This document shows positions 1-62,060 of a stretch of 64,000 nt of DNA, piece after piece. The notes under the pieces are model-generated. The model saw only the letters and a list, made by a program, of their open reading frames with translations. It was not told the origin of the DNA and did not search any database. Source of the DNA: Thysanoteuthis rhombus (taxonomy: Eukaryota > Mollusca > Cephalopoda > Oegopsida > Thysanoteuthidae). Every line of letters starts with the position of its first letter. The stretch's first letter is position 1. The position numbers and the translations under genes were made by a program. The DNA lies in NCBI GenBank assembly GCA_963457665.1, contig OY735224.1, positions 50,313,311 through 50,377,310 on the forward strand, written 5' to 3'.

Positions 1-34
1 ATAGAGATCAGACATTAGATCAGTGTTTTGGAAC
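1..34 (-). pseudogene. Edge fragment of exon-like ORF X1
   Basis: Reverse complement of the start of the X1 exon seen complete at 24632 and 11866. The acceptor AG reads as CT at 35-36, preceded on the minus strand by a T-rich tract. The window edge cuts it off, so nothing can be said about its integrity. Confidence 0.4.

Positions 35-527: not shown

Positions 528-528
<1 letters not shown>

Positions 529-569
<41 letters not shown>
529..569. repeat. (CA)n/(TA)n microsatellite
   Basis: Short CA run followed by about 28 bases of TA. The paralogous positions at 24018-24105 and 11304-11332 carry TA tracts of different length, so the tract has changed size since duplication. Confidence 0.95.
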
Positions 570-573
<4 letters not shown>

Positions 574-612
574 AGGATTGGTGATAAGGAGCCCCCTATT
601 GGAAATTGATAA

Positions 613-804
613 AACCTTTATTATCTATGGGTTGACAGTAGTCAAACTAGCTTTACTGATAGAATTTGCCTTCAGTGTTGCATCTACTTACTCGTTGTCC
701 CACTCTCAAAGGAAGAAGTTAGAGAAATAAAGGAATGTTTACCAAAGGAACATAATATTTCTGATAGGGAATTCATTCTCAGCCATCGTTTACAGGTGGA
801 CTAG
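613..804 (+). pseudogene. Exon-like ORF remnant X3, possibly transposase-derived
   Basis: Sixty-three codons are open here, ending in TAG. The same frame is open in the copy at 23976-23773 (minus) but carries stops in the copy at 11262-11072 (minus). A well-kept block reads KECLPKEHNISDREFILSHR. The end loosely recalls the sequence before the last catalytic block of PIF/Harbinger transposases, but no catalytic residues are visible, so this is a weak suggestion. No good start codon or family assignment. Confidence 0.3.
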
Positions 805-1054
805 AGAAATATTGAGTATTACCAAGGATAATTCATCTGTCTATGGGTGGACATGTATACAGGGAGATAGCTCGACAACTTTGCATCATACAGAGTTGAT
901 ATTTGCCACATGTTTCATTGACAACTTCTTTTATTATCATAACTTCACAAAAAATTGTTAAAAATATTAAAAACATTAGTCATAGGAGCTAAAAAAGCTC
1001 TGTTTATAGCTTTTTAGGTTTATAGCTTTTTAGGCTCATTCGTTTATTATTAGT

Positions 1055-4000
1055 ACATACAAGAAAGTTGTTAAAAACCTTTGAAACATTGCTTCTGTGG
1101 CTACCCTTTAAGGCTTGGTTATGAACACTTTGAAAAATCAGTACTTGTTTTTTTACTACATTCAGTAAAATTGTTGGAAAACCTCTAAAACTTTTGTTTC
1201 AAAACTAAAAAGGCTCTGATTATAGCTTTTCAGGTTGGTTTTATGTCTGACTCGTATATTGTTACTACATTCAAGAAAGTTGTTAAAAACCTTTGAAACA
1301 TTGCTTCTGTGGCTACCCTTTAAGGCTTAGTTAATAACACTGTGAAAAATCAGTACTATTTTCCACTACATTAAGGAAAATTGTTGGAAAACCTCTAAAT
1401 ATTTACTTTCAAATATAGAAAATCTCTGATTATAGTTTTTTAGGTTGGTTTTATCACTGACTCATATATTGTTACTATATTCAAAAAAGTTGTTAGAAAA
1501 CTTTGAAATAATGCTTCTCTGGCTACCCTTTAAGGCTTGGTTATTAACACTGTGAAAAATCAGTACTATCTTTCTCTACTACATTCAGGAAAATTGTTGG
1601 AAAACCTCTAAAACTTTAGTTTCAAATATATAAAGGCTATGTTTATAGCTATTGAGGTTGGTTTTATCACTGACTCGTTTATTGTTACTACATTCAAGAA
1701 AGTTGTTAAGAACCTATGAAACATTGCTTCTCTGGCTACCCTTCAAGGCTTAGTTATTAACACTTTGAAAAATCAGTACTATTTTTCACTACATTCAGGA
1801 AAATTGTTGGAAAACCTCTGAAACTTTAGTTCAAGACCTAAAGAGGGTCTGATTATATCTTTTTTGGAAAATCAGTACTTTTTTATTTACTTCATTCAGG
1901 AGCATTGTTGGAAAACCACTAAAACTTTAGTTTCAAACCTAAAAAAAATCTCATTATAGCTTTTCTGGTCGGTTTTATCACTGACACGTATATTGTTACT
2001 AGATTCAAGAAAGTTGTTAAAAACCTTCGAAACATTGCTTCTGTGGATATCCTTTAAGGGTTGGTTATTAACACTATGAAAAATCTATACTTTCTTCTCA
2101 CTACATCCTGGAAGATTGTTGGAAAACCTCTAAAAAGTGGTTTTGAACCTAAAAAGGCTATGTTTATGGCTTTTTAGGTTAGTTATATCACTAACTTATA
2201 CAATGTTACCACATTCAAGAAAGTTGTTACAAATCTTTGAAATATTGCTTCTGTGGTTAACCTTTAAAACTTGGTTATGAACACTTCAAAAAATGAGAAC
2301 TATTTTATACAAATTTCAGGAAAATGTTTGGAAAACCTATGAAAATTTAGTTCTGAATATACAAAGGCTATGTTTACAGCTTGTAAAGTTGGTTTTATCA
2401 CTGACTCATATATTGTTACAACATCCAAAAAGTTGTTAAAAACCTTTGATACATACTCCTGTGGCTACCCTTTAAGGCTTGGTTGTGAACACTTTGAAAA
2501 ATCAGTATTATTTTTTTACTACATTCAGGCAAATTGCTGGAAAACCTCTAAAACTTCAGTTTCAAACCTAAAAAGGCTCTGATTAGAGCTTTTTAGGTTT
2601 GTTTTATCAATGACTCGTATATTGTTACTATATTAAAAAAAGTTGTTAAAAACCTATGAAACAATGCTTCTCTGGCTACCCTTTAAGGCTTGGTTATGAA
2701 GACTCTGAAGATTCAGTACTTTTTTTTTTACTACATTCAGGAAAATTGTGGGAAAACCTATAAAACTTTAGTTTAAGACCTAAAGAGGGTCTGATTATAT
2801 CTTTTTAGGTTGGTTTTATCTCTGACTCGGAAATTGTAACTACATTCAAGAAAGTTGTTACAAACCTTTGAAACATTGCTTCTCTGGCTACCCTTTAAGG
2901 CTTAGTTATTAACACTGTGAAAAATCAGTACTATTTTTCACTACATTAAGGAAAATTGTTGGAAAACCTCTAAATATTTACTTTCAAATATAGAAAATCT
3001 CTGATTATAGTTTTTTAGGTTGGTTTTATCTCTGACTTGTACATTGTTACTACATTCAAGAAAGTTGTTAAAAATCTTTGAAACATTGCACCTCTGGCTA
3101 CCCTTCAAGGCTTGGTTATGAAGACTCTGAAAAATCAGTACTATTTTTCTCTACTACATTCAGGAAAATTGTTGGAAAACCTCTAAAATTTTAGTTTCAA
3201 ATATATAAAGGCTATGTTTATAGCTATTGAGGTTGGTTTTATCACTGACTCGTATATTGTTACTACATTCAAGAAAGTTGTTAAGAACCTTTGAAACATT
3301 GCTTCTCTGGCTACCCTTCAAGGCTTAGTTATTAACACTGTGGAAAATCAGTACTATTTTTCACTTCATTTAGGAAAATTGTTGGAAAACCTCTAAAACT
3401 TTAGTTCAAGACCTAAAGAGGGTCTGATTATATCTTTTTTGGAAAATCAGTACCTTTTTATTTACTTCATTCAGGAGCATTGTTGGAAAACCACTAAAAC
3501 TTTAGTTTCAAACCTAAAAAAAATCTCATTATAGCTTTTCTGGTCGGTTTTATCACTGACACGTATATTGTTACTAGATTCAAGAAAGTTGTTAAAAACC
3601 TTCGAAACATTGCTTCCGTGGCTATTCTTTAAGGTTTGGTTATTAACACTATGAAAAATCTATACTTTTTTCTCACTACATCCTAGAAAATTGTTGGAAA
3701 ACCTCTAGTTCCAAATATATAAAGGCTATGTTTATAGCTATTGAGGTTGGATTTATCACTGACTCGTATATTGTTACTACATTCAAGAAAGTTGTTAAAA
3801 ACCTTTGAAACATTGCTTCTGTGGCTACTTTCTAAGGCTCGGTTATGAACACTTTGAAAAACCAGTACTATTTTTTTTGCTACTTTCAGGAAAATTGTTG
3901 GAAAACCTATAAAACTTTAGTTTCAAATATAGAAAGGCTCTGATTATAGCTTTTCAGGTTAGTTTTATCACTGACTCGTATATTGTTACTACATTTGAGA

Positions 4001-5420
4001 AAGTTGTTAAAAACCTTTGAAACAATGCTTCTCTGGCTACCTTTTGAGGCTTGGTTATGAACACTCTGAAAAATCTGTGCTTTTTTCCTTGCTACATTCA
4101 GGAAAAAGGTTGGAAAACTTCAAAACTTTAGTTTCAAATATAGAAAGGCTATGTTTATAGCTTTTTAGGTTGGTTTTATCACTGACTCTTATATTGTTAC
4201 TAGATTCAACAAAGTTGTTAAATCCCCTTAAACATTGTTTCTGTTGTTACCTTTCAAGGCTTGGATATGAACACTTTGAAAAATCAATACTATTTTACTT
4301 CACTACGTTCAGGAAAATATTTGGAAAACCTTTAAATCTTTAGTTCCAAATATATAAAGGCTATGTTTATAGCTATTGAGGTTGGATTTATCACTGACTC
4401 GTATATTGTTACCAGATTCAAGAAGGTTGTTAAAAACCCTTGGAACATTGCTTCTCTGGCTACCCTCTAAGGCTCGGTTATGAACACTTTGGAAAATCAG
4501 TATTTTTTTTTTACTACATTCAGGAAAATTGTCGGAAAACCTATAAAACTTTAGTTTCAAATATAGAAAGGCTATGTTTATAGCTATTGAGGTTGGTTTT
4601 ATCACTGACTTGTATATTGTTACTACATTCAAGAAAGTTGTTAAAAACCTTTGAAACATTGCTTCTCTGGCTACCCTCTAAGGCTTGGTTATTAACACAG
4701 TGAAAAATCAGTACTATTTTTTTTTATTAATTTCTGCAAAATTGTTAGTAAACCTCTAGAATTTCAAATATAAAAGAGCTATGTTCATAGCTTTTTAGGT
4801 TGGTTTTATCACTGACTCGTATTTTGTTACTACATTCGAGAAAGTTGTTAAAAACCTTTGAAACATTGCTTCTCTGGCTACTCTTTAAGGATTGGTTATG
4901 AACACTCTGAAAAATCAGTACCATTTTTTTTTTATTACGTCCAGGAAAATATATGGAAAACCTCTAAAACTTCAGTTTCAAATATAGGAAGGCTATGTTT
5001 ATAGCTTTTTAGGAGGGTTCTATCACTGACTTGTATATTGTTACTACATTCAAGAAAGTTGTTAAAAACCTTTGAAACATTGCTTCTCTGGCTACCCTTT
5101 TAGGCTTGGTTATGAACACTTTGAAAACCAATATTATTTTTCTTTACTCAAATCAGGAAAATTGTTGGAAAACCTCTAAAACTTTAGTTTCAAATATAGA
5201 AAGGCTATGTTTATAGCTATTGAGGTTGGTTTTATCACTGACTCGTATATTGTTACTACATTCAAGAAAGTTGTTAAAAACCTTTGAAACATTGCTTCTC
5301 AGGCTTGGTTATGAACACTTTGTAAAATCAGTACTTCATTCAGGAAAATGTGGGAAAACCTCTAAAACTTTAGTTCAGTTTAGTTTCAGACTTAAAAAGG
5401 GTCTGATTATAGCTTTTCGT
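1055..5420 (+). repeat. 212-bp dimeric satellite array (left arm)
   Basis: About twenty units of 210-212 bp; the anchor AAGAAAGTTGTTAAAAACCT recurs for example at 1061, 1273 and 1695. Each unit is two related ~105-bp halves: half A contains GCTTCTGTGGCTACCC, half B contains a copy of GGCTCTGATTATAGC. Both halves open with TACTACATTCA. Some units are rearranged or duplicated as blocks (1830-2100 resembles 3395-3670). Short ORFs crossing it are by-products of the repeat. Confidence 0.95.
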
Positions 5421-5537
5421 GATTGAAAAATAAATTATTTCAGCTGGTATTTAAAAAAAATGTTTAGTTGATTTGGTCATTTCCAGTGTCTTCTCAACAA
5501 TCTATAGAGGAAATAAAAGAATCATGTGATAATAATA

Positions 5538-5577
<40 letters not shown>

Positions 5578-6340
5578 TGGGGTTCGGGGCTCATCATTGT
5601 CCGATGAAACGCCCACGTACCTCTGATCTCTTGTATGGAAGGGGTCGGGGACGAAAGGACAAGACAACTTTGAATCAGGGTCGAATCTCAGGGGAGAAGG
5701 CTAAAAGTGCCTCTCATCTATTCCCTCTTATTATTACAATTGGAGGTGGGAACATTCAAAGTTGGAATTTGTTGAAATATTCGCTACTAAATCATTTTAC
5801 AATGATTATAAAGGATTGTAAAAAAATAATACTAAAAATTGCTTATGAATTTCACTCGAGCATAGTAGGATAGTTTTGTAATTTAATGTCTAATAAGATA
5901 ACAAGCAGTCATTGGGAAGTGGTTTTTGATGAATTAATACTTTCATTTGTCCAAATCAGATTTTGCAACAACACCTCTCTATCGTTGGTGTCACGGAGCC
6001 AGTACTTTCCGAATATGTCTGCTTCGTCTCTCCATCTTGTATTCTGCCGGACTACCTCGGTAGCACATGTTTTCTCTGCTGATGCCTGTTGTGAATCATA
6101 ATGTATGTTTGGTGTGTGCCATTCCTGCAATATATCCAGCCCATTGCTATTTTACAGTGCATTAGAATATTAATAGTTGATAACATTCGCTCTGAAGCTA
6201 AGAAGGCTCCGTCTATACCTTTCCAGGCTTGCTATTTTTACACCTGCAAAATTCAATTATATATGATTACTACTTTCGAGACAATTGTTAAAAACCTTGT
6301 AAACATACATTGTCAAAGCTAAAAAGGCTCCATGTATAAT
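5421..6340. repeat. Interspersed module with (TG)n tract and RTE-type tail, left arm
   Basis: Almost identical in reverse at about 21390-20490. In order it has a unique leader, a (TG)n tract at 5538-5577, a block around 5580-5880 that also recurs near 14290-14600, 42590-42870 and 62680-62990, and the minus-strand RTE-like tail. Open frames beginning in the TG tract are low-complexity artefacts. Confidence 0.75.
5895..6180 (-). pseudogene. RTE-like LINE 3' end remnant
   Basis: On the minus strand the translation contains NTRWRDEADIFGKYWLRDTN, preceded by a degenerate QWAG block. That order (KWxWAGHxAR, then a xTRWRDE block) is typical of the C-terminal end of RTE-type retrotransposon polyproteins. 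No reverse transcriptase catalytic motif is present. Other copies are at 13185, 20690, 42930, 48305, 51880 and 62350. Confidence 0.6.
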
Positions 6341-7030
6341 TTCTTTTTACTCATATATTATTAAAGAATGCAAGAAAACTTATTGAAATATTCGATTCAA
6401 AGCTGAAAAGGCTCTGTTTATATCTTTTTAGCTTTGCTCTTCATACACATCTATATATTATTTTGAAGAAAACCTTTCAAACATTAGTTTCAAGGCTAAA
6501 AAGGCTCTGTTTATACCCTTCCAGACTTGGTTTTGACACTTTGAAAATTCCATCATATATTATTACTACATTGAAGTAAATTGTTAAAAACCTTCAAAAC
6601 ATTGCTATCAAAGCTAAAAAGACTCTGTTTACAGCATTTTAGGCTCAGTTTTGACACTTTGATTATATGTTATTACTACTTCCTTGGAAAGTGTTGAAAA
6701 TATTGAAACCATTCGTTTTTAATACTCACTCATATACTATCACTACATGCAAGAAAAGTATTAAAGACCTTTGAAACATTGGTTCTTAATCTAAAAAGGC
6801 TCTGTTTATACCTTGTTAGGCTTGGATTGGATATTTTGAAAATTCAAGTATGTGTTATAACAGCATCGTAAAAATTTCATGAAAAACATTGGAAACATTG
6901 GTTTCAAAGCTGAAAATGCTTTATTCATACCCTTTTAGGCTTTGTTTATGGTCACTTTGATATTTCAATAATATATTTTGACTACATTCAGACAAATTGA
7001 TGAGAAACCTCTAAAACATTGTTTTCAAAC
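6341..7030 (+). repeat. Diverged ~110-bp satellite monomers (half-B type)
   Basis: Degenerate monomers sharing the sequence order TTGTTAAAAACC, AAGCTAAAAAGGCTC, AGGCTTGG. They resemble half B of the 212-bp dimer. The counterpart in the opposite arm is about 20490-19775. Confidence 0.8.
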
Positions 7031-8395
7031 CTTAAAAGGCTTGGCTTGGTTTTGACACATATTCATTTATTATTACTTCATTGAAGTAAATTGTTTGAAA
7101 CTTCAAAAATATGGGTTTCAAAGCTAGAAAGGCTCTTTTTAATACCCTTTCAGTTATGGTTTTGACACATATTCATTTATTATTACTTCACTCAAGTAAA
7201 TTGTTTGAAACTTCAAAAATATGGGTTTCAAAGCTAGAAAGGCTCTTTTTATACCCTTTCAGTTATGGTATTGACACATATTCATCTATTATAACTTCAT
7301 TGAAGTAAATTGTTTGAAAGTTCAAAAATATGGGTTTCAAAGCTAGAAAGGCTCTTTTTAATACCCTTTCAGTTATGGTTTTGACACATATTCATCTATT
7401 ATTACTTCATTGAAGTAAATTGTTTGAAACTTCAAAAATACTGGTTTCAATGCTAGAAAGACTCTTTTTATACCCTTTCAGTTATGGTATTGACACATAT
7501 TCATCTATTATAACTTCATTGAAGTAAATTGTTTGAAAGTTCAAAAATATGGGTTTCAAAGCTAGAAAGGCTCTTTTTAATACCCTTTCAGTTATGGTTT
7601 TGACACATATTCATCTATTATTACTTCATTGAAGTAAATTCTTTGAAACTTCAAAAATACTGGTTTCAATGCTAGAAAGACTCTTTTTATACCCTTTCAG
7701 TTATGGTATTGACACATATTCATCTATTATAACTTCATTGAAGTAAATTGTTTGAAAGTTCAAAAATATGGGTTTCAAAGCTAGAAAGGCTCTTTTTAAT
7801 ACCCTTTCAGTTATGGTTTTGACACATATTCATCTATTATTACTTCATTGAAGTAAATTCTTTGAAACTTCAAAAATATGGGTTTCAAAGCAAGAAAGAC
7901 TCTTTTTATACCCTTTCAGTTATGGTATTGACACATATTCATGTATTATTACTTCATTGAAGTAAATTGTTTGAAACTTCAAAAATACTGGTTTCAAAGC
8001 AAGAAAGACTCTTTTTATACCCTTTCAGTTATGGTATTGACACATATTCATTTATTATCACTTCATTGAAGTAAATTCTTTGAAACTTCAAAAATATGGG
8101 TTTCAAAGCTAGGAAGGCTCTTTTTATACCCTTTCAGTTATGGTATTGACACATATTCATCTATTATTACTTCATTGAAGTAAATTGTTTGAAACTTCAA
8201 AAATATGGGTTTCAAAGCTAGAAAGGCTCTTTTTATACCCTATCAGTTATGGTTTTGACACATATTCATCTATTATTACTTCATTGAAGTAAATTGGTTG
8301 AAAGTTCAAAAATATGGGTTTCAAAGCTAGAAAGGCTCTTTTTAATACCCTTTCAGTAATGGTTTTGACACATATTCATCTATTATTACTACATT
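7031..8395 (+). repeat. Homogeneous ~110-bp satellite array, left arm
   Basis: About twelve near-identical units of 109-111 bp; ATGGGTTTCAAAGCTAGAAA recurs at 7111, 7221 and 7330 and onward. Matching arrays are at 18870-19775 in reverse. Some neighbouring pairs alternate between two subtypes (ATGGG and CTGG variants), giving a ~220-bp higher-order period between 7330 and 7990. Confidence 0.95.
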
Positions 8396-8803: not shown

Positions 8804-9189
8804 CGTTGCCAGGCGTAGAGGGAGCCTCAACATCCGTTGCTACTGTCCTACCGATGGTAGAGGCTCCGTCTCACCGGGTGCACTTCGCTCAACTACCACC
8901 CAGGATTGAGGATGCCTCAACACCAACCATAGAGGCAGCTAATCGGGTTCATCTTCCTCGAACAAGATTGCCTGGCAATGCTTCTGCAGTGAACCAGAGG
9001 ATGAAGCAGAAGCATCGCCTTCTACTCATTGCCTTGGCATTTTTAGTTGTGATTGCATTGATATTAAGTGTAGTATTGGCCGTTGCCGCTAATATATATG
9101 TGGTGATTTCAGAGATTATATGTATGCTGGCTGTTAATACTATCATTGTTTATCTTTGCCACCAGGATTTAGGCATTGAGTTGCTTTAA
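8804..9189 (+). pseudogene. Two-TM small ORF, copy 1, 5'-truncated
   Basis: Starts in mid-frame at the LPGVEG block, losing about the first 50 residues found in the intact copies, because the upstream sequence jumps to an unrelated flank at about 8800. The remaining 127 codons are open to the same LGIELL end as the copy at 38780-39310, to which it is nearly identical. It has no upstream ATG; the first internal ATG falls about 15 codons in. The basic hinge and two hydrophobic segments are retained. Probably a dead fragment unless an upstream exon supplies a start. Confidence 0.7.
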
Positions 9190-15612: not shown

Positions 15613-15645
<33 letters not shown>

Positions 15646-15853: not shown

Positions 15854-16366
15854 ATGGGCAACAAAAGAAGCCAGCCAACCAAACCATCTGCAGCATCAGA
15901 GACCGTTGAAGTGGCCATTACCCCCTTTATCATAGAGGTGGGTGAGGACCCACCCATCGCTATGAGTCCTCCAATGTGCACGCTGGATATTGAGAGACCG
16001 TTGCCAGGCGTAGAGGGAGCCTCAACATTCGTTGGTACTGTCCTATCGATGGTAGAGGCTCCTATTCACCGGGTGAACTTCGGTCAATTATCACCCAGGA
16101 TTGAGGAAGCTTCAACACCTACCATAGCTGCAGCTAATCGGGTTCATCTTCCTCGACCAAGATTGCCTGGCAATGCTTCTGCAGTGAACCAGAGGATAAA
16201 GCTAAAGATGCGCCTTTTTCTTATTGTCTTGGCATTGTTGATTGTCATTACATTGACATTAACAATATATTTGGCCATTGTAGTTACTCCATATGCCCTG
16301 ATTTTTGATATTATAAGTATGATGGCATTGTATGGTGTATTTGCATGTCTTTTACACCAATATTGA
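15854..16366 (+). CDS. Small two-TM protein, copy 2 (intact)
   Basis: 170 codons with ATG in good context (A at -3, G at +4). Residues 1-8 read MGNKRSQP, an N-myristoylation-like start (Gly2, Ser6). Residues about 9-110 are rich in Pro, Ser, Thr and acidic residues, with conserved blocks VEVAITPFIIEVGEDPP and RPLPGVEGAST. A basic hinge (NQRIKLKMR, about 113-121) precedes two hydrophobic segments (about 122-145 and 149-168), suggesting a C-terminal hairpin with a cytoplasmic N-terminus. Against the copy at 44333-44857, the first 54 codons show 7 replacement and 6 silent codon changes, weak evidence of constraint. The 3' flank grades into 114-bp repeats. Family not recognised; could be a single-exon gene or an ORF of an undescribed mobile unit. 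Confidence 0.6.
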   Translation: MGNKRSQPTKPSAASETVEVAITPFIIEVGEDPPIAMSPPMCTLDIERPLPGVEGASTFVGTVLSMVEAPIHRVNFGQLSPRIEEASTPTIAAANRVHLPRPRLPGNASAVNQRIKLKMRLFLIVLALLIVITLTLTIYLAIVVTPYALIFDIISMMALYGVFACLLHQY

Positions 16367-16530: not shown

Positions 16531-17080
16531 CTGCCGTATTGAACCTGGCAATATTCTGTTGGAGTTTATTTCGTTTTCAGGAAGCCTCTCTCATTTAAAC
16601 TGACAATGGTCTCCTCGGTAACTTTTTCATCTTTGGGGGGAAGCCAATGAAATTGAACAAATAGTCCGTGAGACTTTATTTCGTTTCCGGGAACCTGTGA
16701 CACTGATATTCACGATGGTCTCTTCAAGACTCTTTTCATTTCTGGGAGGTAGCAAGAGAAATTGAATCTGAAAATAGTTTGTGAGACTTTATTTTGTTTC
16801 CAGGGAGCCTTTAAGACTGATATTCACAATGGTCTCTTCAAGACTCTTTTTGTTTTCGGGAGGAAGCCAGTGAAATTGAACCTGAAAATAGTCTCTGAGA
16901 CTTTATTTTGTTTCCAGGGAGCCTTTAAGACTGATATTCACAATGGTGTCTTCAAGACTCATTTTGTTTCCGGGAGGAAGCCAGTGAAATTGGTAACTTA
17001 AAATAGTCTGCGAGACTTTATTTTGTTTCCAGGAAGCCTTTAAAACTGATATACACAATGTTCTCTTCGAGACTTTATTT
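16531..17080 (+). repeat. Short 114-bp repeat array after ORF copy 2
   Basis: About five units, progressively more regular with distance from the ORF. The last ones (16762-17000) read through as a 38-residue repeat. Same orientation relative to the ORF as in copies 4 and 5. Confidence 0.9.
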
Positions 17081-17209: not shown

Positions 17210-18869
17210 AGATCAAAGTAATGATTGTATTTCCGAATATCAAAACCATGCCTAGAGAGATATGAACAGAGAATTTTTAGCTTTGAAACAAATGTTTTCA
17301 AGGTTTCCAACTATTTTCTTTAATGTAGTTATGATACATAATCAAATTTTCGTAGTGTCAAAGACATGTCTAAAAGGGTATAAACAAAGCCTTTTTAGCT
17401 TTGGAACCAATGTTTGAGAGATTTTTAACATTTTTCTTGAAAGCATTGATATTAACTGAGTGAGTGTCAAATTCAATCCTCAAAAGGTATAAACACAGCT
17501 ATTTTTAGCTTTGAAAACCTCTGTTTTTGAGCTTTTTCAGCCATATTCTTTCAGGTAGTAATAAAAAACGATTGTATCTTGGAAATGTCAAAACCAAGAC
17601 TGAAAAGGTATGAGCAGAGACTTTTCAGCTTCAAAACCAATGTTCCAGAGGTTTTAAACACTTTCATTGAATGTATTATAAATAATTGAATGACAATCCA
17701 AACCAAGCCTAAAAAGGTATAAACAGAGCCTTTTTAGCCCTGAAACCAATGTTCCAAGAATTTTATCAATTTTCTCAAATGCAGTAATAATGTAGAATTA
17801 AAAGTATCAAAAGTGAGCCCGAGATCCTTTTCAGCTTTAAAAAGCAATGTTCTCAATGTTTTTCATCAATTTCTTTGAATTCAAAAACCCTTTATGATTG
17901 TGCAAAAACCTTGCCTGAAGTGCTATAAACATGGCATTTTTTGCTTTGAAATCAATGTTCTCCAATGTTTTTCATTAATTTTCTCGAATGCAGTTATAGT
18001 ATATGATTGAATTTTCAGATTGTCATACAAAGCCTAAAAAGTTGTTAATAGAGCTCTTTTAGCTTTGAAATCAATGTCGTAAGGGTTTTTTAATAATTTT
18101 CATGGATGTTTAAGTGATATATGTTTAAAAGGTGTAAACAGGGAATCTTAACTTTAGAAACCAATTTCTCGGAAGCAATGATAATACATGAGTAAGAGTT
18201 GAGACCAAAGCTGAAAGGGCACGAACATAGCTTTTTTTACCTTCATAACCAATGTTTCTAAGGTTATGACGATTTTCTTGAACAAAATAATAATATAAGA
18301 GTAAGTGTCAAAACCAAGCCTAAAAAGGTATTAGCAGAGCCTTTTTGGCATTGAAACCAGTGTTTCCAAGGTTTTGCAACAGTTTTCTTGAATGTAATCC
18401 TGATATATGATTGAAGATTCAAAGTGTTAAAACTGAGCCTTGAAAGATATGGAATGTGCCTTTTTAACTTTTCAAGCAATGGTCTAAAGATATTTTGACA
18501 ATTTCCTTTTAATGTTGTAATATCGTATGACTGAATCTTGAAAGTGTCAAAAGCAAATCCATAGGGTATAAATATAGCCTTTTTAGCTTCCAAAACCAAT
18601 GTTTTCAAGTTTTTTTCAAAATTTTCTCTGATGTAATAATAATATATGATTGAACTCCGTCAAGAGCAAGCCAAAAAAAGCTATATACAGAGTCTTTTCA
18701 GCTCTGAAATCCATGTCTTCATTGTTCCTCAATAATTTTAATGAATATATCAATGAGATATGATTGAACATTGGAAGTGTGAAAACCAAACCGAAAAGGG
18801 TATAAACAGGGACTTTCCAGCTTTGAAACCACTATTTCAAGGTTTTATAACAATTCTATTGAATGTAGT
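17210..18869 (-). repeat. Diverged ~110-bp satellite monomers, right arm side
   Basis: About fifteen degenerate minus-strand monomers with AGCCTTTTTAGCTTTGAAAC and a poly-T/TAACAA block. More diverged than the adjoining homogeneous array, as expected of older array edges. Confidence 0.85.
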
Positions 18870-19775
18870 AATAATAGATGAATATGTGTCAAAACCATAA
18901 CTGAAAGGGTATTAAAAAGAGCCTTTCTAGCTTTGAAACCCATATTTTTGAACTTTCAAACAATTTACTTGAATGAAGTAATAATAAATGAATATTTGTC
19001 AAAACCATAACAGAAAGGTATTAAAAAGAGCCTTTCTAGCTTTGAAACCCATATTTTTGAACTTTCAAACAATTTACTTGAATGAAGTAATAATAGATGA
19101 ATATGTGTCAAAACCATAACTGAAAGGGTATTAAAAAGAGCCTTTCTAGCTTTGAAACCCATATTTTTGAAGTTTCAAACAATTTACTTGAATGAAGTAA
19201 TAATAGATGAATATGTGTCAAAACCATAACTGAAAGGGTATTAAAAAGAGCCTTTCTAGCTTTGAAACCCATATTTTTGAACTTTCAAACAATTTACTTG
19301 AATGAAGTAATAATAGATGAATATGTGTCAAAACCATAACTGAAAGGGTATAAAAAGAGTCTTTCTAGCTTTGAAACCCATATTTTTGAACTTTCAAACA
19401 ATTTACTTGAATGAAGTAATAATAAATGAATATGTGTCAAAACCATAACTGAAAGGGTATAAAAAGAGCCTTTCTAGCTTTGAAACCCATATTTTTGAAC
19501 TTTCAAACAATTTACTTGAATGAAGTAATAAGAAATGAATATGTGTCAAAGCCATTACTGAAAGGGTATTAAAAAGAGCCTTTCTAGCTTTGAAACCCAT
19601 ATTTTTGAACTTTCAAACAATTTACTTCAATGAAGTAAAAATAGATGAATATGTGTCAAAACCATTACTGAAAGGGTATAAAAAGAGCCTTTCTAGCTTT
19701 GAAACCCATATTTTTGAAGTTTCAAACAATTTACTTGAATGAAGTAATAAATGAATATGTGTCAAAACCAAGCCA
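18870..19775 (-). repeat. Homogeneous ~110-bp satellite array, right arm
   Basis: About eight near-identical units, the reverse of the array at 7031-8395. CTTTCTAGCTTTGAAACCCA recurs every ~110 bp. Confidence 0.95.
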
Positions 19776-20530
19776 AGACTTTTAAGGTTTGAAAACTATG
19801 TTTTAGAGGTTTCTCATCAATTTGTCTGAATGTAGTCAAAATATATTATTGAAATATCAAAGTGACCATAAACAAAGCCTAAAAGGGTATGAATAAAGCA
19901 TTTTCAGCTTTGAAACTAATGTTTCCAATGTTTTTCATGAAATTTTTACGATGCTGTTATAACACATACTTGATTTTTCAAAATGTCCAAACCAAGCCTA
20001 ACAAGGTATAAAGAGAGCCTTTTTAGATTAGGAACCAATGTTTCAAAAGTCTTTAATACTTTTCTTGCATGTAGTGATAGTATATGAGTGAGCATTAAAA
20101 GCTAGCCTAATTTCAATTTTGAAAACGAATGTTTTCAATATTTTCAACACTTTCCAAGGAAGTAGTAATAATATATAATCAAAATGTCAAAACTGAGCCT
20201 AAAATGCTGTAAACAGAGTCTTTTTAGCTTTGATAGCAATGTTTTGAAGGTTTTTAACAATTTACTTCAATGTAGTAATAATATATGATGGAATTTTCAA
20301 AGTGTCAAAACCAAGTCTGGAAGGGTATAAACAGAGCCTTTTTAGCCTTGAAACTAATGTTTGAAAGGTTTTCTTCAAAATAGTATATAGATGTGTATGA
20401 AGAGCAAAGCTAAAGAGATATAAACAGAGCCTTTTTAGCTTTGAATCGAATATTTCAATAAGTTTTCTTGCATTCTTTAATAATATATGAGTAAAAAGAA
20501 ATTATACATTGAGCCTTTTTAGCTTTGACA
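19776..20530 (-). repeat. Diverged ~110-bp monomers, right arm
   Basis: Reverse counterpart of 7030-6320, unit by unit. Confidence 0.85.
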
Positions 20531-21263
20531 ATGTATGTTCACAAGGTTTTTAACAATTGTCTCAAAAGTAGTAATCATATACAATTGAATTTTGCAGGTG
20601 TAAAAAAAGCAAGCCTGAAAAGGTATAGACGGAGCCTTCTTAGATTCAGAGCGAATGTTATCAACTATTAATATTCTAATGCACTGTAAAATAGCAATGG
20701 GCTGGATATATTGCAGGAATGGCACACACCAAACATACATTATGATTGACAACAGGCATCAGCAGAGAAAACATGTGCTACCGAGGTAGTCCGGCAGAAT
20801 ACAAGATGGAGAGACGAAGCAGACATATTCGGAAAGTACTGGCTCCGTGACACCAACGATAGAGAGGTGTTGTTGCAAAATCTGATTTGGACAAATGAAA
20901 GTATTAATTCATCAAAAACCACTTCCCAATGACTGCTTGTTATCTTATTAGACATTAAATTACAAAACTATTCTACTATGCTCGAGTGAAATTCATAAGC
21001 AATTTTTAGTATTATTTTTTTACAATCCTTTATAATCATTGTAAAATGATTTAGTAGCGAATATTTCGACAAATTCCAACTTTGAATTTTCCCCCCTCCA
21101 ATTGTAATAATAAGAGGGAATAGATGAGAGGCACTTTTAGCCTTCTCCCTTGGAGTTTGACCCTGATTCAAAGTTGTCTTGTCCTTTCGTCCCCGACCCC
21201 TTTCATACAAGAGATCAGACGTAAGTGGGCGTTTCATCGGACAATGATGTGCCCCAAACCCCA

Positions 21264-21327
<64 letters not shown>

Positions 21328-21430
21328 TATTATCATCACATGATTCTTTTATTTCCTCTATAAATTGTTCAGAAGACACTGGAAATGACCAAATGAACTA
21401 AACATTTTTTTTAAATACCAGCTGAAATAA
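20531..21430. repeat. Interspersed module with (CA)n tract and RTE-type tail, right arm
   Basis: Reverse counterpart of 6320-5425. The CA tract at 21264-21326 is about 63 bases against about 40 in the left arm. Elsewhere differences are few, so the arms are young or have been homogenised. The RTE tail is at 20690-20950, forward. Confidence 0.85.
20690..20950 (+). pseudogene. RTE-like LINE tail remnant
   Basis: Forward copy of the element at 6180-5895. It carries the degenerate QWAG block and the CAAGATGGAGAGACGAAG (RWRDE) block followed by FGKYWLRDTN. No catalytic domain. Confidence 0.6.
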
Positions 21431-21439
21431 TTCATTTTT

Positions 21440-23560
21440 CGATCACGAAAAGCTATAATCAAACCCTTTTTAAGTCTGAAACTAAACTGAAACTAAAGTT
21501 TTAGAGGTTTTCCCAATATTTTCCTGAATGTAGTAAAAAAAAAAGTACTGATTTTACAAAGTGTTCATAACCAAGCCTGAGAAGCAATGTTTCAAAGGTT
21601 TTTAACAACTTTCTTAAATGTAGTAACAATATACGAGTCAGTGATAAAACCAACCTGAAAAGCTATAATCAGAGCCTTTCTATATTTGGAACTAAAGTTT
21701 TAGAGGTTTTCCAACAATTTTCCTGAATGTAGAAAAAAAATAGTACTAACTTTTCATAGTCTTCATAACCAAGTCTTAAAAGGTGGCCGCAGAAGCAATG
21801 CATGAGGGTTTTTTTATCAACTTTCTTGAATGTAGTAACAATATACGAGTCAGTGATAAAACCAACCTAGAAAGCTATAATCAGAGCGTTTCTATATTTG
21901 AAAGTGAAGATTTAGAGGTTTTCCAACAATTTTCAAGAATATAGTAAAAAAAATCGTACCGATTTTTCAAAGTGTTCATAACCAAACCTTAAAAGGTAGC
22001 CACAGAAACAATGTTCCAAAGGTTTTTAACAACTTTCTTGAATGTAGTAACAATATACAAGTCGGAGATAAAAACAACCTAAAAAGATATAATCAGACCC
22101 TCTTTAGGTCTTTAAGTAAAGTTTTAGAGGTTTTCCAACAATTTTCCTGAATGTAGCAGAGAAAAATAGTCCTGATTATTCAAAGTGTTAATAACCAAGC
22201 CTTAAAGGGTAGCCAGAGAAGCAATGTTTTAAAGGTTTTTAACAACTTTCTTGAATATAGTTACAATATACGAGTCAGTCATAAAACCAACCTCAATAGC
22301 TATAAACATAGCCTTTATATATATTCGAAACTAAAGTTTTAGCGGTTTTCCAAATATTTCCCTGAACGTAGTGAAGAAAAATAGTATTGATTTTTTGAAG
22401 TGTTTATAACCAAGCCTTGAAGGGTAGCAACAGAAACAATGTTTAGGGGGTTTTAACAACTTTCTTGAATGTAGTAACAATATACGAGTCAGTGATAAAA
22501 CCAACCTAAAAAGCTATAAACATAGCCTTTGTATATTTGAAACTAAAGATTTAGAGGTTTTCCAACAAATTTCCTGAACGTGGTAAAAAAGAAATAGTAC
22601 TGATTTTTGAAAGTGTTCATAACTAAGCTTCAGAGGGTAGCCAGGGAAGCGATGTTTCAAAGGTTTTTAACAACTTTCTTAAATGTAGTAACAATATACA
22701 AGTCAGAGATAAAACCAACCTAAAAAGATATAATCAGACCCTCTTTAGGTCTTCAATTAAAGTTTCAGAGGTTTTCCAACAATTTTCGTGAATGTAGTGA
22801 AAAATAGTACTGATTTTTCACAGTGTTCATAACCAAACCTTAGAAGGTAGCCGGAGAAGCAATGTTTCAAAGGTTTTTAACAACTTTCTTGATTGTAGTA
22901 ACAATATACAAGTCAGACATAAAACCAACCTGAAAAGCAATAATCAGAGCGTTTCTATATTTGAAAGTGAAGATTTAGAGGTTTTCCAACAATTTTCCTG
23001 AATGTAGTAAAAAAAATAGTACTGATTTTTCAGAGTGTTCATAACCAAGCCTTAAAGGGTAGCCACAGAAGCAATGTTTCATAGTTTTTTAACAACTTTT
23101 TTGAATATAGTAACAATATATGAGTCAGTGATAAAACCAACCTAAAAAACTATAATCAGAGATTTTCTATATTTGAAAGTAAATATTTAGAGGTTTTCCA
23201 ACAATTTTACTGAATGTAGTAAAAAAATAAGTACTGATTTTTCAAAGTGTTAATAACCAAGCTTTAAAGGGTAGCCACAGAAACAATGTTCCAAAGGTTT
23301 TTAACAACTTTCTTGAATGTAGTAACAATATACAAGTCAGACATATAAACAACCTAAAAAGATATAATCAGACCCTCTTTAGGTCTTCAAGTAAAGTTTC
23401 AGAGGTTTTCCAACAATTTTCCTGAATGTAGCAGAGAAAAATAGTCCTGATTTTTCAAAGTGTTAATAACCAAGCCTTAAAGGGTAGCCACAGAAGCAAT
23501 GTTCTAAAGGTTTTTAACAACTTTCTTGTATGTACTAATTATAAACGAATGAGCCTAAAA
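21440..23560 (-). repeat. 212-bp dimeric satellite array (right arm)
   Basis: About ten A-B dimers in reverse, with ATACGAGTCAGTGATAAAAC and GGTAGCCACAGAAGCAATG alternating. Half the length of the array in the left arm, so it has expanded or contracted since the arms formed. Confidence 0.95.
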
Positions 23561-23772
23561 AGCTATAAACCTAAAAAGCTATAAACAGAGCCTTTTTAGC
23601 TCCTATAACTAATGTTTTTAATATTTTCAAAAAATTTTTGTGAAGTTATGATAATAAAAGAAGTTGTCAATAAAACATGTCGCAAATATCAACTCCGTAT
23701 GATGCAAAGTTGTCGAGCTATCTCCCTGCATACATGTCCACCCATAGACAGATGAATTGTCCTTGGTAATAC

Positions 23773-23976
23773 TCAATATTTCTCTAGTCTAGCTTGTAAA
23801 CGATGGCTGAGAATGAATTCCCTATCAGAAATATTATGTTCCTTTGGTAAACATTCCTTTATTTCTAAAACTTCTTCCTTTGAGAGTGGGACAATAAGTA
23901 AGTAGATACAACACTGAAGGCAAATTCTATCAGTAAAGCTAGTTTGACTACTGTCAACCCATAGATAATAAAGGTT
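23773..23976 (-). pseudogene. Exon-like ORF remnant X3, second open copy
   Basis: Open minus-strand frame matching 613-804 but extended past the point where copy 1 has TAG, ending RLQARLEKY then TGA. No initiator. The same weak transposase-like resemblance applies. Confidence 0.3.
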
Positions 23977-24015
23977 TTATCAATTTCCAATAGGGGGCTA
24001 CTTATCACCAATCCT

Positions 24016-24017
<2 letters not shown>

Positions 24018-24113
<96 letters not shown>

Positions 24114-24116
24114 ATA
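24018..24116. repeat. (TA)n microsatellite
   Basis: About 90 bases of TA followed by a short TG run. Far longer than at the two paralogous sites. Confidence 0.95.
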
Positions 24117-24631
24117 TATTAAAATTAAATCTTGTTCCGTAGACACTAGGGCATGCCCATTCTAATGCTGTACCTGGTTTCATGAAAATCTTCAGGAGGT
24201 TTAAACTTGAGATGATGAGACACTGTTGTTTATTTATTTCTGATGTTGTTGATAGCAACAATCAAAACAGAAACAGTGTCCTTAATTGTGATAACCATCA
24301 ATCGAAATATAGTCAGAGTTTTGTTCAGTTTTCGAGTTAGGCTGGCTATGTATGTATGTATCACACGTACGGGCTGTGCCAATGTTGTTTTTTTGTTTGT
24401 TTGTTTTTGTCTTTTTTTAAGGAATAAACACTTCAGGAAAAAAAATTGTCCGACTTAGGACGGTGCCAGTGAGAAAGTCGGGGAGAACCTGTATTACATG
24501 AGACTTTCAATTTACAACTCTAGTGTATTCGATCCAAACTGGGTTCCCCCTCACTTGTGAACTTGCGCCCCACCAAGATAAGCTTAGTGAACATTAGTAT
24601 TATATTGATATATTTTCCGATTTTTCAACAG

Positions 24632-24833
24632 GTTCCAAAACACTGATCTAATGTCTGATCTCTATATGTTTTACGAAATCCCAGACAACGATTACGATTC
24701 TCACGATCCAGTTGTCTATGGGTGAGATGCTCAGGATTCCAAATTGAAGACAATTAAGCCGGAAAATTCAAAACTCCCTGACAAGGAGTGCTACGCAAAA
24801 CTGATTGAACCGTTCCACCTAAAGAAAAAATAA
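24632..24833 (+). pseudogene. Exon-like ORF X1, copy B
   Basis: The acceptor AG is at 24630-24631 behind TTTTCCGATTTTTCAAC. The frame stays open back to the acceptor (FQNTDL before MSDLYMFYEIPDNDYDS), has one in-frame TGA at 24723-24725 (codon 25 from the ATG), then runs to LIEPFHLKKK and TAA at 24831-24833. An AT-rich AATAAA-bearing segment follows near 24930. Shape and signals fit a decayed 3'-terminal exon. Protein not recognised. Confidence 0.45.
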
Positions 24834-25139: not shown

Positions 25140-28100
25140 AGTTTTGAGTTGAAAATAATCTGTCAGACTTTATTTTGTTCCCACAAAGCCATTAACGCTG
25201 ATATTCACAATGGTCTCTTCAAGACTCTTTTCCTTTCCAGGAGGAAGCCAGTGAAATTGAACCTGAAAATAGTCTGTGACACATTATTTGGTATCCAGGA
25301 AGCCTTATAGACTGAAATCCAAAATAGTCTATTCGAGACTCTTTCTGTTTCCGGGAGAAAGCAAATGAAATTAAACCTGAAAATAGTCTGTTAGACTCCA
25401 TTTTGTATCCCGTAAGCCTTTTAGATTGAAATTCACAATTATCTCTTCGAGATGCTTTTCATTTCTGGGAGGAAACTAGTGAAATTGAACCTGAAAATAG
25501 TCTGTGAGACTTTAATTTGTTTCCAGGGGGCTTTTGAGACTGAAATTCACAATGGTCTCTTCAGCACTCTTTTTGTTTTCAGGAGGAAGCCAGTGAAAAT
25601 AGTCTATGACACTTTATTTCATTTTTAGGAAGTCTATGAGACAGAAATTCACAATTGTCCTTTAGAGTCTCTTTTTCTTTTCGGGAGGAAAACAGTGAAA
25701 TTGAACCTGAAAATAGTCTGTGAGACTCTATTTTGTTTTTGGGAAGTCTATGAGACTGAAAATTCACTAAGGTTTTGTCAATACTCTTTTTGTTTTGGAG
25801 AGGAAGCCAGTGAAATTGAACCTTGAAATAGTCTGCTGGACTTTATTTTGTTCCAAGGAATCCTTTTAGACTGAAATTCACAATTGTCTACTCAAGACAT
25901 TTTTTGTTTTTGGGAGGAAGCAAGTGAAATTGAACCTGAAAATAGTCTTTAAGACTTTATTTTGTTCCCAGGAAGCCTTTAAGACTAAAATTCACAATTG
26001 TCTCTTCAAAACACTTTTTGTTCCTGGGAGGAAAACAGTGAAACTGAACCTGAAAATAGTCTGTGAGACTTTATTTAGTTTCCAGGGAGCCTTTTAGACT
26101 AAAATTCACAATTGTCCATTAGGGACTCTTTTTGTTTTCGGGAGGAAAACAATGAAATTGAATCTGAAAATAGTCTGTGAGAATTAATTTAGTTTCCAGG
26201 AAACCTTTTCGACTAAAATGCACAATTGTCCATTAGGGACTCTTTTTGTTTTCGGGAGGAAAACAGTGAAATTGAACCAGAAAATAGTCTGCGAGACTTT
26301 ATTTATTTTCCAAGAAGCCTTCTGGACTAAAATTCACAACTGTCCTTCAGGGACTCTTTTTGTTTTCGGGAGGAAAACAGTGAAATTGAACCTGAAAATA
26401 GTCTGCGAGACTTTATTTATTTTCCAGGAAGCCTTCTAGACTAAAATTCACAACTGTCCTTTAGGGACTGTTTTTGTTTTCGGGAGGAAAACAGTGAAAT
26501 TGAACATGAAAATAGTCTATGAGACTACATTTAGTTTCCAGGAAGCCTTTTAGTCTAAAATTCACAATCGTCCTTTAGAGTCTTTTTTTGTTTTCTGGAG
26601 GAAAACAGTGAAATTGAACCTGAAAATAGTCCGTGAGACTTTATTTAGTTTCCAGGAAGCCTTCTGGACTAAAATTCACAATTGTCCATTAGGAACACTT
26701 TTTGTTTTCTGGAGGAAAACAGTGAAATTGAACCTGAAAATAGTCCGTTAGACTTTATTTAGTTTCCAGGAAGCCTTTTAGTCTAAAATTCACAATCGTC
26801 CTTTAGGGACTCTAATTGTCTTCGCGGGGAAAACAGTGAAATTGAACCTGAAAATAGTCTGTTAGACTTTATTTAGTTTCCACGAAGCCATTTTAACTAA
26901 AATTCACGATTGTCCTTTAGGGACACTTTTTGTTTTTAGGAGGAAAACAGTAAAATACAACCTGAAAATAGTTGTGAAACTTTATATTGTCTCCAAGAAG
27001 CCATTTAGATTAAAATTCACGATTGTCCATTAAGGATTCTTTTCTATTTCGGGAGGAAAACAGTGAAATTGAACCTGAAAATAGTCTGTGAGACTTTATT
27101 TAGTTTCCAGGAAGCCTTTCAGGCTCAAATTCACAATTGTCCATTAGGGACACTTTTCGTTTTCGGGAGGAAAACAGTAAAACACAACCTGAAAATAGTC
27201 TGTTAGACTTTATTTAGATTCCAGGAAGCCTTTCAGACTCAAATGCACAATCGTCCTTCAGTGACCCTTTTTGTTTTCGGGGGGAAAACAGTGAAATTGA
27301 ACCCGAAAATAGTCTATGAGACTTTATTCAGTTTCTAGGAAGTCTTTCCGACTAAAATTCACAATTGTCCTTTAGGGACTCTTTTTGTTTTCGGGAGGAA
27401 AACAGTGAAATTGAACCTGAAAATAGTCTATGAGACTTTATTTATTTTCCAGGAAGCCTTCTGGACTAAAATTCACAACTGTCCATTAGGGACTCTTTCG
27501 TTTTTGGGAGGAAAACAGTGAAATTGAACCTGAAAATAGTCTGTGATACTTTATTTAGTTTCCAGGAAACCTTTTAGACTAAAATGCACGATTGTCCATT
27601 AGAGACTCTTTTTGTTTTCGGGAGGAAAACAGTGAAATTGAACCTGAAAATAGTCTGTTTGACTTTATTTAGTTTCCAAGAAGCCTTCTGGACTAAAATT
27701 CACAACTGTCCTTTAGGGACTCTTTTTGTTTTCGGGAGGAAAACAGTGAAATGGAACGTGAAAATAGTCTATGAGACTACATTTAGTTTCCAGGAAGCCT
27801 TTCAGACTGAAATTCACAACTGTCCTTTAGGGACTCTTTTTGTTTTCGGGAGGAAAACAGTGAAATTGAACCTGAAAATAGTCTGCGAGACTTTATTTAT
27901 TTTCCAAGAAGACTTCTGGACTAAAATTCACAACTGTCCTTTAGGGACTCTTTTTGTTTTCGGGAGGAAAACAGTGAAATGGAACGTGAAAATAGTCTAT
28001 GAGACTACATTTAGTTTCCAGGAAGCCTTTCAGACTGAAATTCACAACTGTCCTTTAGGGACTCTTTTTGTTTTCGGGAGGAAAACAGTGAAATTGAACC

Positions 28101-31100
28101 TGAAAATAGTCTGTGAGACTACATTTAGTTTCCAGGAAGCCTTTCAGACTCTAATTCACAATTGTCCACTAGGGACTCTTTTTGTTTTCGGGAGGAAAAC
28201 ACCGAAATTGAACCTGAAAATAGTCTGTGAGACTTTATTTAGTTTCCAGGAAGCCTTTTAGACTAAAATTCACGATTGTCCTTCAGGGACTCTTTCTGTT
28301 TTCGGGAGGAAAACAGTGAAATTGAACCTGAAAATAGTCTGTTAGACTTTATTTAGTTTCCAGGAAGCGTTTCAGACTCAAATTCACAATTGTCCATTAG
28401 GGACACTTTTTGTTTCGGGAGGAAAACAGTGAAATTGAACCTGAAAATAGTCTGTTAGACTTTATTTAGTTTCCAGGAAGCCTTTCAGACTCAAATGCAC
28501 AATCGTCCTTCAGTGACTCTTTTTGTTTTCGGGAGGAAAACAGTGAAATTGAACCCGAAAATAGTCCATGAGACTTTATTCAGTTTCTAGGAAGTCTTTC
28601 CGACTAAAATTCACAATTGTCCTTTAGGGACTCTTTTTGTTTTCGGGAGGAAAACAGTGAAATTGAACCTGAAAATAGTCTGCGAGACTTTATTTATTTT
28701 CCAAGAAGACTTCTGGACTAAAATTCACAACTGTCCTTTAGGGACTCTTTTTGTTTTCGGGAGGAAAACAGTGAAATGGAACGTGAAAATAGTCTATGAG
28801 ACTACATTTAGTTTCCAGGAAGCCTTTCAGACTGAAATTCACAACTGTCCTTTAGGGACTCTTTTTGTTTTCGGGAGGAAAACAGTGAAATTGAACCTGA
28901 AAATAGTCTGTGAGACTACATTTAGTTTCCAAGAAGCCTTCTGGACTAAAATTCACAACTGTCCTTTAGGGACTCTTTTTGTTTTCGGGAGGAAAACAGT
29001 GAAATGGAACCTGAAAATAGTCTATGAGACTACATTTAGTTTCCAGGAAGCCTTTCAGACTGAAATTTACAACTGTCCTTTAGGGACTCTTTTTGTTTTC
29101 GGGAGGAAAACAGTGAAATTGAACCTGAAAATAGTCTGTGAGACTACATTTAGTTTTCAGGAAGCCTTTCAGACTCTAATTCACAATTGTCCACTAGGGA
29201 CTCTTTTTGTTTTCGGGAGGAAAACAGTAAAACACAACCTGAAAATAGTCTGTTAGACTTTATTTAGATTCCAGGAAGCCTTTCAGACTCTAATTCACAA
29301 TTGTCCACTAGGGACTCTTTTTGTTTTCGGGAGGAAAACAGTGAAATTGAACCTGAAAATAGTCTGTGAGACTTTATTTAGTTTCCAGGAAGCCTTTTAG
29401 ACTAAAATTCACGATTGTCCTTCGGGGACTCTTTTTGTTTTCGGGAGGAAAACTGTGAAATTGAACCTGAAAATAGTCTGTTAGACTTTATTTAGTTTTC
29501 AGGAAGCCTTTCAGACTCAAATGCACAATCGTCCTTCAGTGACTCTTTTTGTTTTCGGGAGGAAAACAGTGAAATTGAACCTGAAAATAGTCTGTGAGAC
29601 TTTATTTAGTTTCCATGAAGCCTTTTAGACTGAAATTCACAATTGTCCTTCAGGGACACTTTTCGTTTTCGGGAGGAAAACAGTAAAACACAACCTGAAA
29701 ATAGTCTGTTAGACTTTATTTAGATTCCAGGAAGCCTTTCAGACTCAAATGCACAATCGTCCTTCAGTGACCCTTTTTGTTTTCGGGGGGAAAACAGTGA
29801 AATTGAACCCGAAAATAGTCTATGAGACTTTATTCAGTTTCTAGGAAGTCTTTCCGACTAAAATTCACAATTGTCCTTTAGGGACTCTTTTTGTTTTCGG
29901 GAGGAAAACAGTGAAATTGAACCTGAAAATAGTCTATGAGACTTTATTTATTTTCCAGGAAGCCTTCTGGACTAAAATTCACAACTGTCCTTTAGGGACT
30001 CTTTCGTTTTTGGGAGGAAAACAGTGAAATTGAACCTGAAAATAGTCTGTGATACTTTATTTAGTTTCCAGGAAGCCTTTTAGACTAAAATGCACAATTG
30101 TCCATTAGGGACTCTTTTTGTTTTCGGGAGGAAAACAGTGAAATTGAACCTGAAAATAGTCTGCGAGACTTTATTTATTTTCCAAGAAGCCTTCTGGACT
30201 AAAATTCACAACTGTCCTTTAGGGACTCTTTTTGTTTTCGGGAGGAAAACAGTGAAATGGAACCTGAAAATAGTCTATGAGACTACATTTAGTTTCCAGG
30301 GAGCCTTTCAGACTGAAATTCACAACTGTCCTTCAGGGACTCTTTTTGTTTTCGGGAGGAAAACAGTGAAATTTAACCTGAAAATAGTCTGTGAGACTAC
30401 ATTTAGTTTCCAGGAAGCCTTTCAGACTCTAATTCACAATTGTCCTTTAGGGACTCTTTTCGTTTTCGGGAGGAAAACAGTGAAATTGAACCTAAAAATA
30501 GTCCATTAGACTTTATTCAGTTCCCAGGAAGCCATTTATATTAAAATTCACTATTGTCCATTAGGGACTCTTTTTGTTTTCGGGAGGAAAACAGTGAAAT
30601 TGAACCTGAAAATAGTCTGTGAGACTTTATTTAGTTTCCAGGAAGCCTTTTAGACTAAAATTCACAATTGTCCTTTAGGGACTCTTTTTGTTTTCGGGAG
30701 GAAAACTGTGAAATTGAACCTGAAAATAGTCTGTGAGACTTTATTTAGTTTCCATGAAGCCTTTTAGACTGAAATTCACAATTGTCCTTTAGGGACTCTT
30801 TTTGTTTTCGGGAGGAAGACAGTCAAATACAACCTGAAAATAGTCTGTGAGACTACATTTAGTTTCCAGGAAGCCTTTCAGACTGAAATTCATAATTGTC
30901 CTTTAGGGACTTTTTTTGTTTTCGGGAGGAAAACAGTGAAATTGAACCTGAAAATAGTCTGTGAGACTTTATTTTGTTTTCAGGAAGCCTTTGAAAATGA
31001 TATTCACGATGGTTTTTCTCAAGACTCTTTCTGTTTTCGGGAGGAAAACAGTGAAATTGAACCTCAAAATCGTCTGTGACTTTTTATTTTTTGTCTAAGA

Positions 31101-60735: not shown

Positions 60736-60739
60736 AAAT

Positions 60740-62056: not shown

Positions 62057-62060
62057 GTGT

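Follow-up and report, generated by a model that had tools for sequence, protein, structure and literature searches.

A multicopy reading-frame family beside 114-bp satellite repeats in Thysanoteuthis rhombus, one form of which looks like a selected gene

The window, meaning the whole 64,000-nucleotide stretch of DNA analysed here, corresponds to C29:50,313,311-50,377,310 within a 2.73-Gb assembly of 514 contigs. A first-pass annotation had placed five copies of a small open reading frame (ORF) in it, at 8804, 15854, 39310 (reverse strand), 44857 (reverse strand) and 61040, and had described three of them as full-length and open. Both statements hold. The open copies are copy 2 (15854-16366, forward strand, 170 aa, group C2), copy 3 (39310-38780, reverse strand, 176 aa, group C3) and copy 4 (44857-44333, reverse strand, 174 aa, group C4). 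Copy 3 is intact and belongs to the group that shows selection; some members of the group of copy 4 are broken.

The two remaining copies are damaged. Copy 1 (8804-9189, forward strand) is a C3-type copy truncated at the 5' end, where about the first 48 codons are missing. Over 565 bp its identity with copy 3 is 97.7%; it differs from that copy by 2 silent and 3 replacement changes and matches the C3 membrane-segment pattern exactly. Copy 5 (61040-61537, forward strand) is C4-like and has lost both its start codon, where ATG is replaced by GTG, and its frame, which is interrupted by gaps of 23 bp and 1 bp. Its N-terminal lesions are common to the copies at L045, L047 and L051.

The copies share their surroundings as well. 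The 5' flank block of copy 5 (60690-61039, forward strand) recurs upstream of copy 3, where alignments and genome matches place it at 39311-39660 (reverse strand), and upstream of copy 2 from position 15645. On the other side, 114-bp repeats adjoin copies 2 to 5, a linkage already reported in the first-pass annotation. They follow copy 2 (16635-17074, forward strand), copy 4 (43518-44159, reverse strand) and copy 5 (61716-62055, forward strand) in the orientation of the ORF. Downstream of copy 3 lies a 13.4-kb array of the repeat (25150-38580, forward strand), oriented opposite to the ORF. This array contains long open frames of repeated peptide, up to 318 aa, which result from the 114-bp unit being 38 codons long and are probably incidental.

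Several other elements occupy the window. The 114-bp repeats of copies 4 and 5 are directly succeeded by large-subunit rRNA fragments (43301-43459, forward strand, and 62057-62324, reverse strand), antisense to the ORF. They match the eukaryotic model, are followed by sequence resembling the end of a LINE, and are part of a longer duplicated segment. A 175-aa ORF at 59925-60452 (reverse strand) has a weak GIY-YIG match below Pfam's cut-off (E 0.00038), and resembles part of a Penelope-like element. At 56984-57373 (reverse strand) there is a fragment like a Tc1/Tc3-type transposase, also below Pfam's cut-off (E 0.0011). Finally, positions 1-8261 and 18544-24665 form a large inverted duplication, 88-91% identical over long stretches, that consists mostly of 109-bp and 210-bp tandem repeats. 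SINE motifs occur in the window no more often than expected by chance, and one such motif is missing from 40 loci.

Genome-wide pattern and protein searches show that the five window copies are a small sample of the ORF family. A 29-bp pattern from the ORF has 293 matches in the genome and none in a reversed control, so the family is not a product of chance. Protein searches were run with copies 2, 4 and 3, scoring the best 150 of 555, 412 and 1016 candidates, respectively. Among the matches listed, the family is confined to one block of about 3.7 Mb on a single contig: the listed matches of the 29-bp pattern all lie on C29, and those of the protein searches all lie on C29 at about 47.2-50.9 Mb. 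Because the genome searches score only the best candidates, confinement to C29 holds for the matches listed. For the 5' flank block the best 40 of 278 candidates were scored, and all 40 are on C29. Likewise, the 114-bp array has 465 genome matches, and those listed are all on C29. The C3 membrane-segment pattern, for which the listing is complete, has 51 matches, every one on C29. Among the matches listed there is no second co-amplified chromosome.

Many family copies form arrays in which a unit of about 1,235 bp repeats head to tail. This unit contains a 176-aa ORF, a 34-bp duplicate of part of that ORF, a LINE-end stretch and the 5' flank. The LINE-end stretch we take, by resemblance, to be the C-terminal end of a LINE reverse transcriptase, with a GAT-rich tail. 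The 34-bp duplicate (unit positions 544-577) copies ORF codons 19-30 and shares the reading frame of the LINE end, so that the two make up a short fused frame. In 195 kb from seven arrays, 140 units were found, of which 122 were full units, with a neighbour required at normal spacing, and were aligned. The ORF is intact in 80 of these 122. At the 3' end of all seven fetched arrays stands one kind of copy, which carries TAG; in the array-end copies that were read the start codon is gone too. A common type of end copy suggests that whole arrays were duplicated. One stretch, L021-L024 (C29 48,036,207-48,053,458), is organised on a larger scale: three 1,235-bp units, together about 3.7 kb, form a higher-order repeat that recurs several times almost unchanged.

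The tandem copies evolve neutrally. Across the 122 units, diversity at codon positions 1, 2 and 3 is 0.056, 0.044 and 0.052, compared with 0.054 in the spacer, so that conservation in the ORF does not exceed that of the spacer. The ORF variants comprise 104 silent, 265 replacement and 12 stop changes, against 105.3, 287.8 and 13.6 expected from the spectrum of the spacer, and omega is 0.88 in a codon model that used 39 of the 115 gap-free units. The tandem ORF does have a low count of insertions and deletions (8 distinct in 531 bp, versus 32 in 704 bp of spacer). This deficit was not counted as selection, because the spacer holds simple repeats and stops are undepleted.

Neutrality of this kind raises the question of whether the family as a whole is a neutral macrosatellite. 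In this model, the copies are satellite-like DNA, the ORF is open only through youth, and any pattern in C3 is due to chance or homogenisation. The tandem units fit such a model, since their stops occur at the expected rate and no segment within the arrays stands out against the spacer. The smaller groups fit it too. The C2 group (7 copies: 7 silent, 23 replacement), the C4 group (12 copies: 9 silent, 31 replacement, 1 stop) and the array-end group (8 copies: 7 silent, 11 replacement, 1 stop) show no departure from neutrality, and all seven C2 copies read are open although their variants are neutral.

The same test gives a different answer for C3, and the neutrality of the tandem, C2, C4 and array-end groups under it serves as an internal control. 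Seven C3 copies carry 10 silent and 6 replacement variants (p=0.003). Twenty copies carry 24 silent and 13 replacement variants and no stop, against a neutral expectation of 27:73 (p=1.4e-6). The variants fall on the three codon positions as 8:5:24, and the codon-model omega is 0.19. The C3 copies differ from the tandem units in a Fisher test (p=2e-5), and when 20 tandem units were drawn at random 1000 times, their silent fraction never rose above 0.373, versus 0.649 in C3. In the seven copies, variant density is 0.030 in the ORF, compared with 0.084 in the 5' flank and 0.055 in the 3' flank. L062 and six copies that stand first in an array belong to the tandem-start type and are not part of these counts. 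The twenty copies read come from the 45 listed, and 19 of them lie at 47.2-49.04 Mb.

The silent excess is stable under all controls run. When the stretch used as search pattern is removed, the silent to replacement ratio is 22:13 (p=8e-6). Sixteen copies give 19:11 (p=3e-5) once the copy from the window and three others that protein similarity had brought in are set aside. Variants that C3 does not share with other groups give 17:10 (p=8e-5), and since these unshared variants keep the excess, homogenisation from other groups does not account for it. A neutral macrosatellite is thus an unlikely explanation for the family.

Two statements of the first-pass annotation can be read in this light. 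It had counted 7 replacement and 6 silent codon differences in the first 54 codons between copies 2 and 4, and had taken the ratio as a sign of constraint. The count is exact. It is, however, no proof of present constraint, because recent variants in the groups of copies 2 and 4 look neutral. The same annotation had held that a dN/dS near 1 over many copies, together with a lack of transcripts, would speak against its reading; neutral values are found for the tandem copies and for the groups of copies 2 and 4, but not for C3.

The intactness of the C3 copies points in the same direction as their variants. Among the matches listed there are 45 full-length C3 copies with 97-100% identity (one of them with a match 9 bp shorter), and none has a stop. 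Of the 51 genome matches to the C3 membrane-segment pattern, 48 are exact, and the control has none. The exact matches include all 45 copies; the rest are the truncated copy 1 and the places 48,794,774 and 49,227,222. No C3 copy with a broken frame was seen except the truncated copy 1; two exact and three near membrane-segment matches lie outside the copies read. The C3 copies are young, with an average of 3.75 differences from the majority sequence, and only about 1 stop would be expected among 37 variants. The lack of stops is for this reason weak evidence by itself, and the silent excess is stronger. Together with omega 0.19, these two observations make C3 look like a real, selected multicopy gene.

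The deeper history of the family is less uniform. When the majority sequences of the four kinds of copy (C2, C3, C4, tandem) are compared, the best tree gives the ORF an omega of 0.71 (2dlnL 3.4, not significant at 5%), a value compatible with the neutral model. Over three trees, the four-majority omega is 0.58-0.70 for the N-terminal part and 0.84-0.96 for the hydrophobic part. The comparison of C3 with the tandem majority gives omega 0.45 (2dlnL 8.4), and that of the C3 and C4 majorities gives 1.07. Simulated neutral change from the tandem majority leaves the frame without a stop with a probability of 0.26, 0.17 and 0.07 for C2, C3 and C4, respectively. The first-pass annotation had also proposed that the membrane segments vary in residues and not in hydrophobicity. 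The same three groups bear this out weakly: under the simulated neutral change, a hydropathy equal to or above the observed one has P = 0.12, 0.013 and 0.25.

Evidence for exchange between the groups can be found by comparing the two parts of the ORF. Each favours a tree of its own, with a margin of at least 4.7 log-likelihood units in one and of 11 in the other, which indicates that copies exchanged pieces. Among the C2, C3 and C4 majorities, divergence in the hydrophobic part exceeds that of the flanks by a factor of 1.6 to 3.9. Diversifying selection on this part was considered and rejected, as silent sites are raised too in the comparisons with C3; for C2 against the tandem majority the hydrophobic part has omega 2.6, which is not significant (2dlnL 3.1). 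Exchange between lineages explains the divergence of the hydrophobic part better than diversifying selection does, because silent sites are raised there and the two parts favour different trees.

The manner in which the family spread can be approached through the 114-bp array. Twenty-seven clusters of the repeat were read from the array matches listed; 21 of them have a listed C3 gene 3.2-16.2 kb away, with the cluster on its downstream side and in the opposite orientation. Random placement of 45 genes (2000 draws) couples a mean of 3.1 clusters, with a maximum of 8. In addition, the arrangement seen in the window, a C4- or copy-5-type ORF followed 5.5-6.1 kb on by a C3 gene, occurs at 13 other places. 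The coupling and the recurrent spacing imply that gene and array seem to travel as one segment, in agreement with the earlier remark that ORF, flanks and array start move together. The family appears to have spread by duplication of segments carrying the 114-bp array, and not as a transposon.

The first-pass annotation had left two possibilities, an amplified host gene family or the coding part of an undescribed mobile unit. The second is a very improbable reading. The joint recurrence of ORF, flanks and array start would suit a mobile element, as would the LINE 3' end in the tandem unit. Against this, the ORF contains no transposase or reverse-transcriptase domain, with no Pfam match above chance. 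Whereas a transposable element would be dispersed over the genome, no listed copy lies off C29. The LINE end, moreover, is found in the tandem unit but not directly 3' of the ORF in copies 2 to 5. The idea of an amplified host gene family is the one that gains support: a single block of about 3.7 Mb among the matches listed, omega 0.19 in C3, and 45 of 45 listed copies free of stops.

The protein itself has no relatives that the searches could detect. One, three and ten copies were compared with 5.8 billion proteins and gave no sequence relatives at the thresholds used, and the same is true of Pfam, the PDB, phage records, viral contigs and prokaryotic genomes. A match to methylenetetrahydrofolate reductase (PDB, E 0.036) covers residues 22-64 only; it was dropped because it is weak and these residues are disordered in the structure model.

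That model has low overall confidence (pLDDT 58, pTM 0.27). In it the first 100 or so residues are disordered, and residues 108-175 form one continuous helix, largely confident, with no hairpin. The 40-residue hydrophobic stretch has a mean hydropathy of 1.9-2.6. The 176-aa C3 protein is accordingly predicted to consist of about 100 Pro/Ser-rich disordered residues, a basic hinge and a helical hydrophobic part of about 45 residues, and this last part probably anchors the protein in a membrane, which it may cross once or twice. By the positive-inside rule, basic residues beside a membrane segment mark its cytosolic side. The basic residues just before the hydrophobic part therefore suggest that the N-terminal part is cytosolic, and the best guess for the C3 protein is a membrane anchor with a disordered cytosolic head. 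N-myristoylation, for which the MGNK start of copies 2 and 4 made a candidate, was discarded, as C3 and the tandem majority begin with MS.

A possible promoter element differs among the groups. The motif TATAAAG is present at -122 to -124 in the C2, copy-5-type and tandem majorities. C3 has no TATA-like element at that place, which counts against simple expression from that start site. Upstream of copy 3 there is a TATA-like stretch at about -349.

Among known kinds of sequence, the nearest are macrosatellites that code for protein, for example PRR20, and ampliconic families, for example Stellate/Su(Ste). Human coding macrosatellites, as described in PMC3018141, include PRR20, RS447, D4Z4 (DUX4) and TAF11-Like, with units of several kilobases. 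The present family likewise has a large tandem unit with an ORF, found head to tail in 122 units of about 1,235 bp, and where that account gives one or two chromosomal places, the matches listed here are all on C29. PRR20 encodes a proline-rich protein of 221 aa, and its unit holds LINE sequence (PMC3018141). Both traits recall the tandem unit described here, a likeness by description; Pfam and protein searches gave no match. Two differences from the macrosatellites as described there should be mentioned. The unit here is 1.2 kb long instead of several kilobases (PMC3018141), and selection is seen not in its tandem copies, which are neutral, but in dispersed ones, of which many adjoin a second satellite. 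A narrow literature query found no published case of neutral tandem copies with selected dispersed ones, which does not prove that there is none.

Stellate of Drosophila is a CK2-beta-like protein. The C3-family protein is unrelated to it, as far as the searches show. The resemblance lies in the genomic arrangement: Stellate and Suppressor of Stellate, by the account in PMC9031259, form a small-ORF multicopy system with many broken relatives and a mobile-element insert in the repeated unit, and the present family too has many small-ORF copies, a large broken set and such an insert. A further parallel exists with the ampliconic families of sex chromosomes, which, as PMC10618873 describes them, are lineage-specific and multicopy, with segmentally duplicated DNA and inverted copies. 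In the present case no co-amplified partner chromosome is found among the matches listed.

These parallels lead to another possible explanation, that of a germline conflict gene. C3 would be a dosage-sensitive factor in a conflict over transmission and would be silenced, as in Stellate/Su(Ste), by RNAs from the tandem arrays or from copies that are broken or inverted. One block does hold selected copies beside many neutral or broken relatives, the window contains inverted copies, and there are convergent arrays. An array of broken copies with a mobile-element insert also recalls Su(Ste) as described in PMC9031259. The tandem unit, however, is only about 88% identical to copy 3, and among the matches listed no second chromosome is co-amplified. 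A conflict of this kind is quite unlikely.

It is quite probable that these sequences represent a gene family that was amplified and has no detected relatives, and that purifying selection acts on its C3 form, next to a far larger set of neutral-looking copies. Under this explanation, copies would have multiplied by duplication of long segments that carried gene and array together, and pieces of the ORF would have been swapped between groups. One branch would have acquired a LINE 3' end and then expanded as 1,235-bp tandem arrays free of selection. C3 would be expressed, its many copies being kept because the amount of protein matters, and its disordered head would face the cytosol.

A more speculative version, quite unlikely, is that an intragenomic arms race maintains the roughly 45 selected copies of C3, which would be a lineage-specific membrane protein gene. 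C3 would then encode a germline factor sensitive to dosage, opposed by the inverted copies and the neutral 1,235-bp arrays, which would serve only as sources of RNA against it. If this were true, a gene and its suppressor satellite, derived from one ancestor, would be evolving side by side in one chromosome block.

Repeat-rich blocks are usually masked before gene prediction, and a gene like C3 could therefore easily go unnoticed. Here, a single block contains a selected multicopy gene together with hundreds of relatives, and those tested outside C3 look neutral. Such a built-in neutral control allows a direct look at why selection maintains dozens of copies that are nearly identical.
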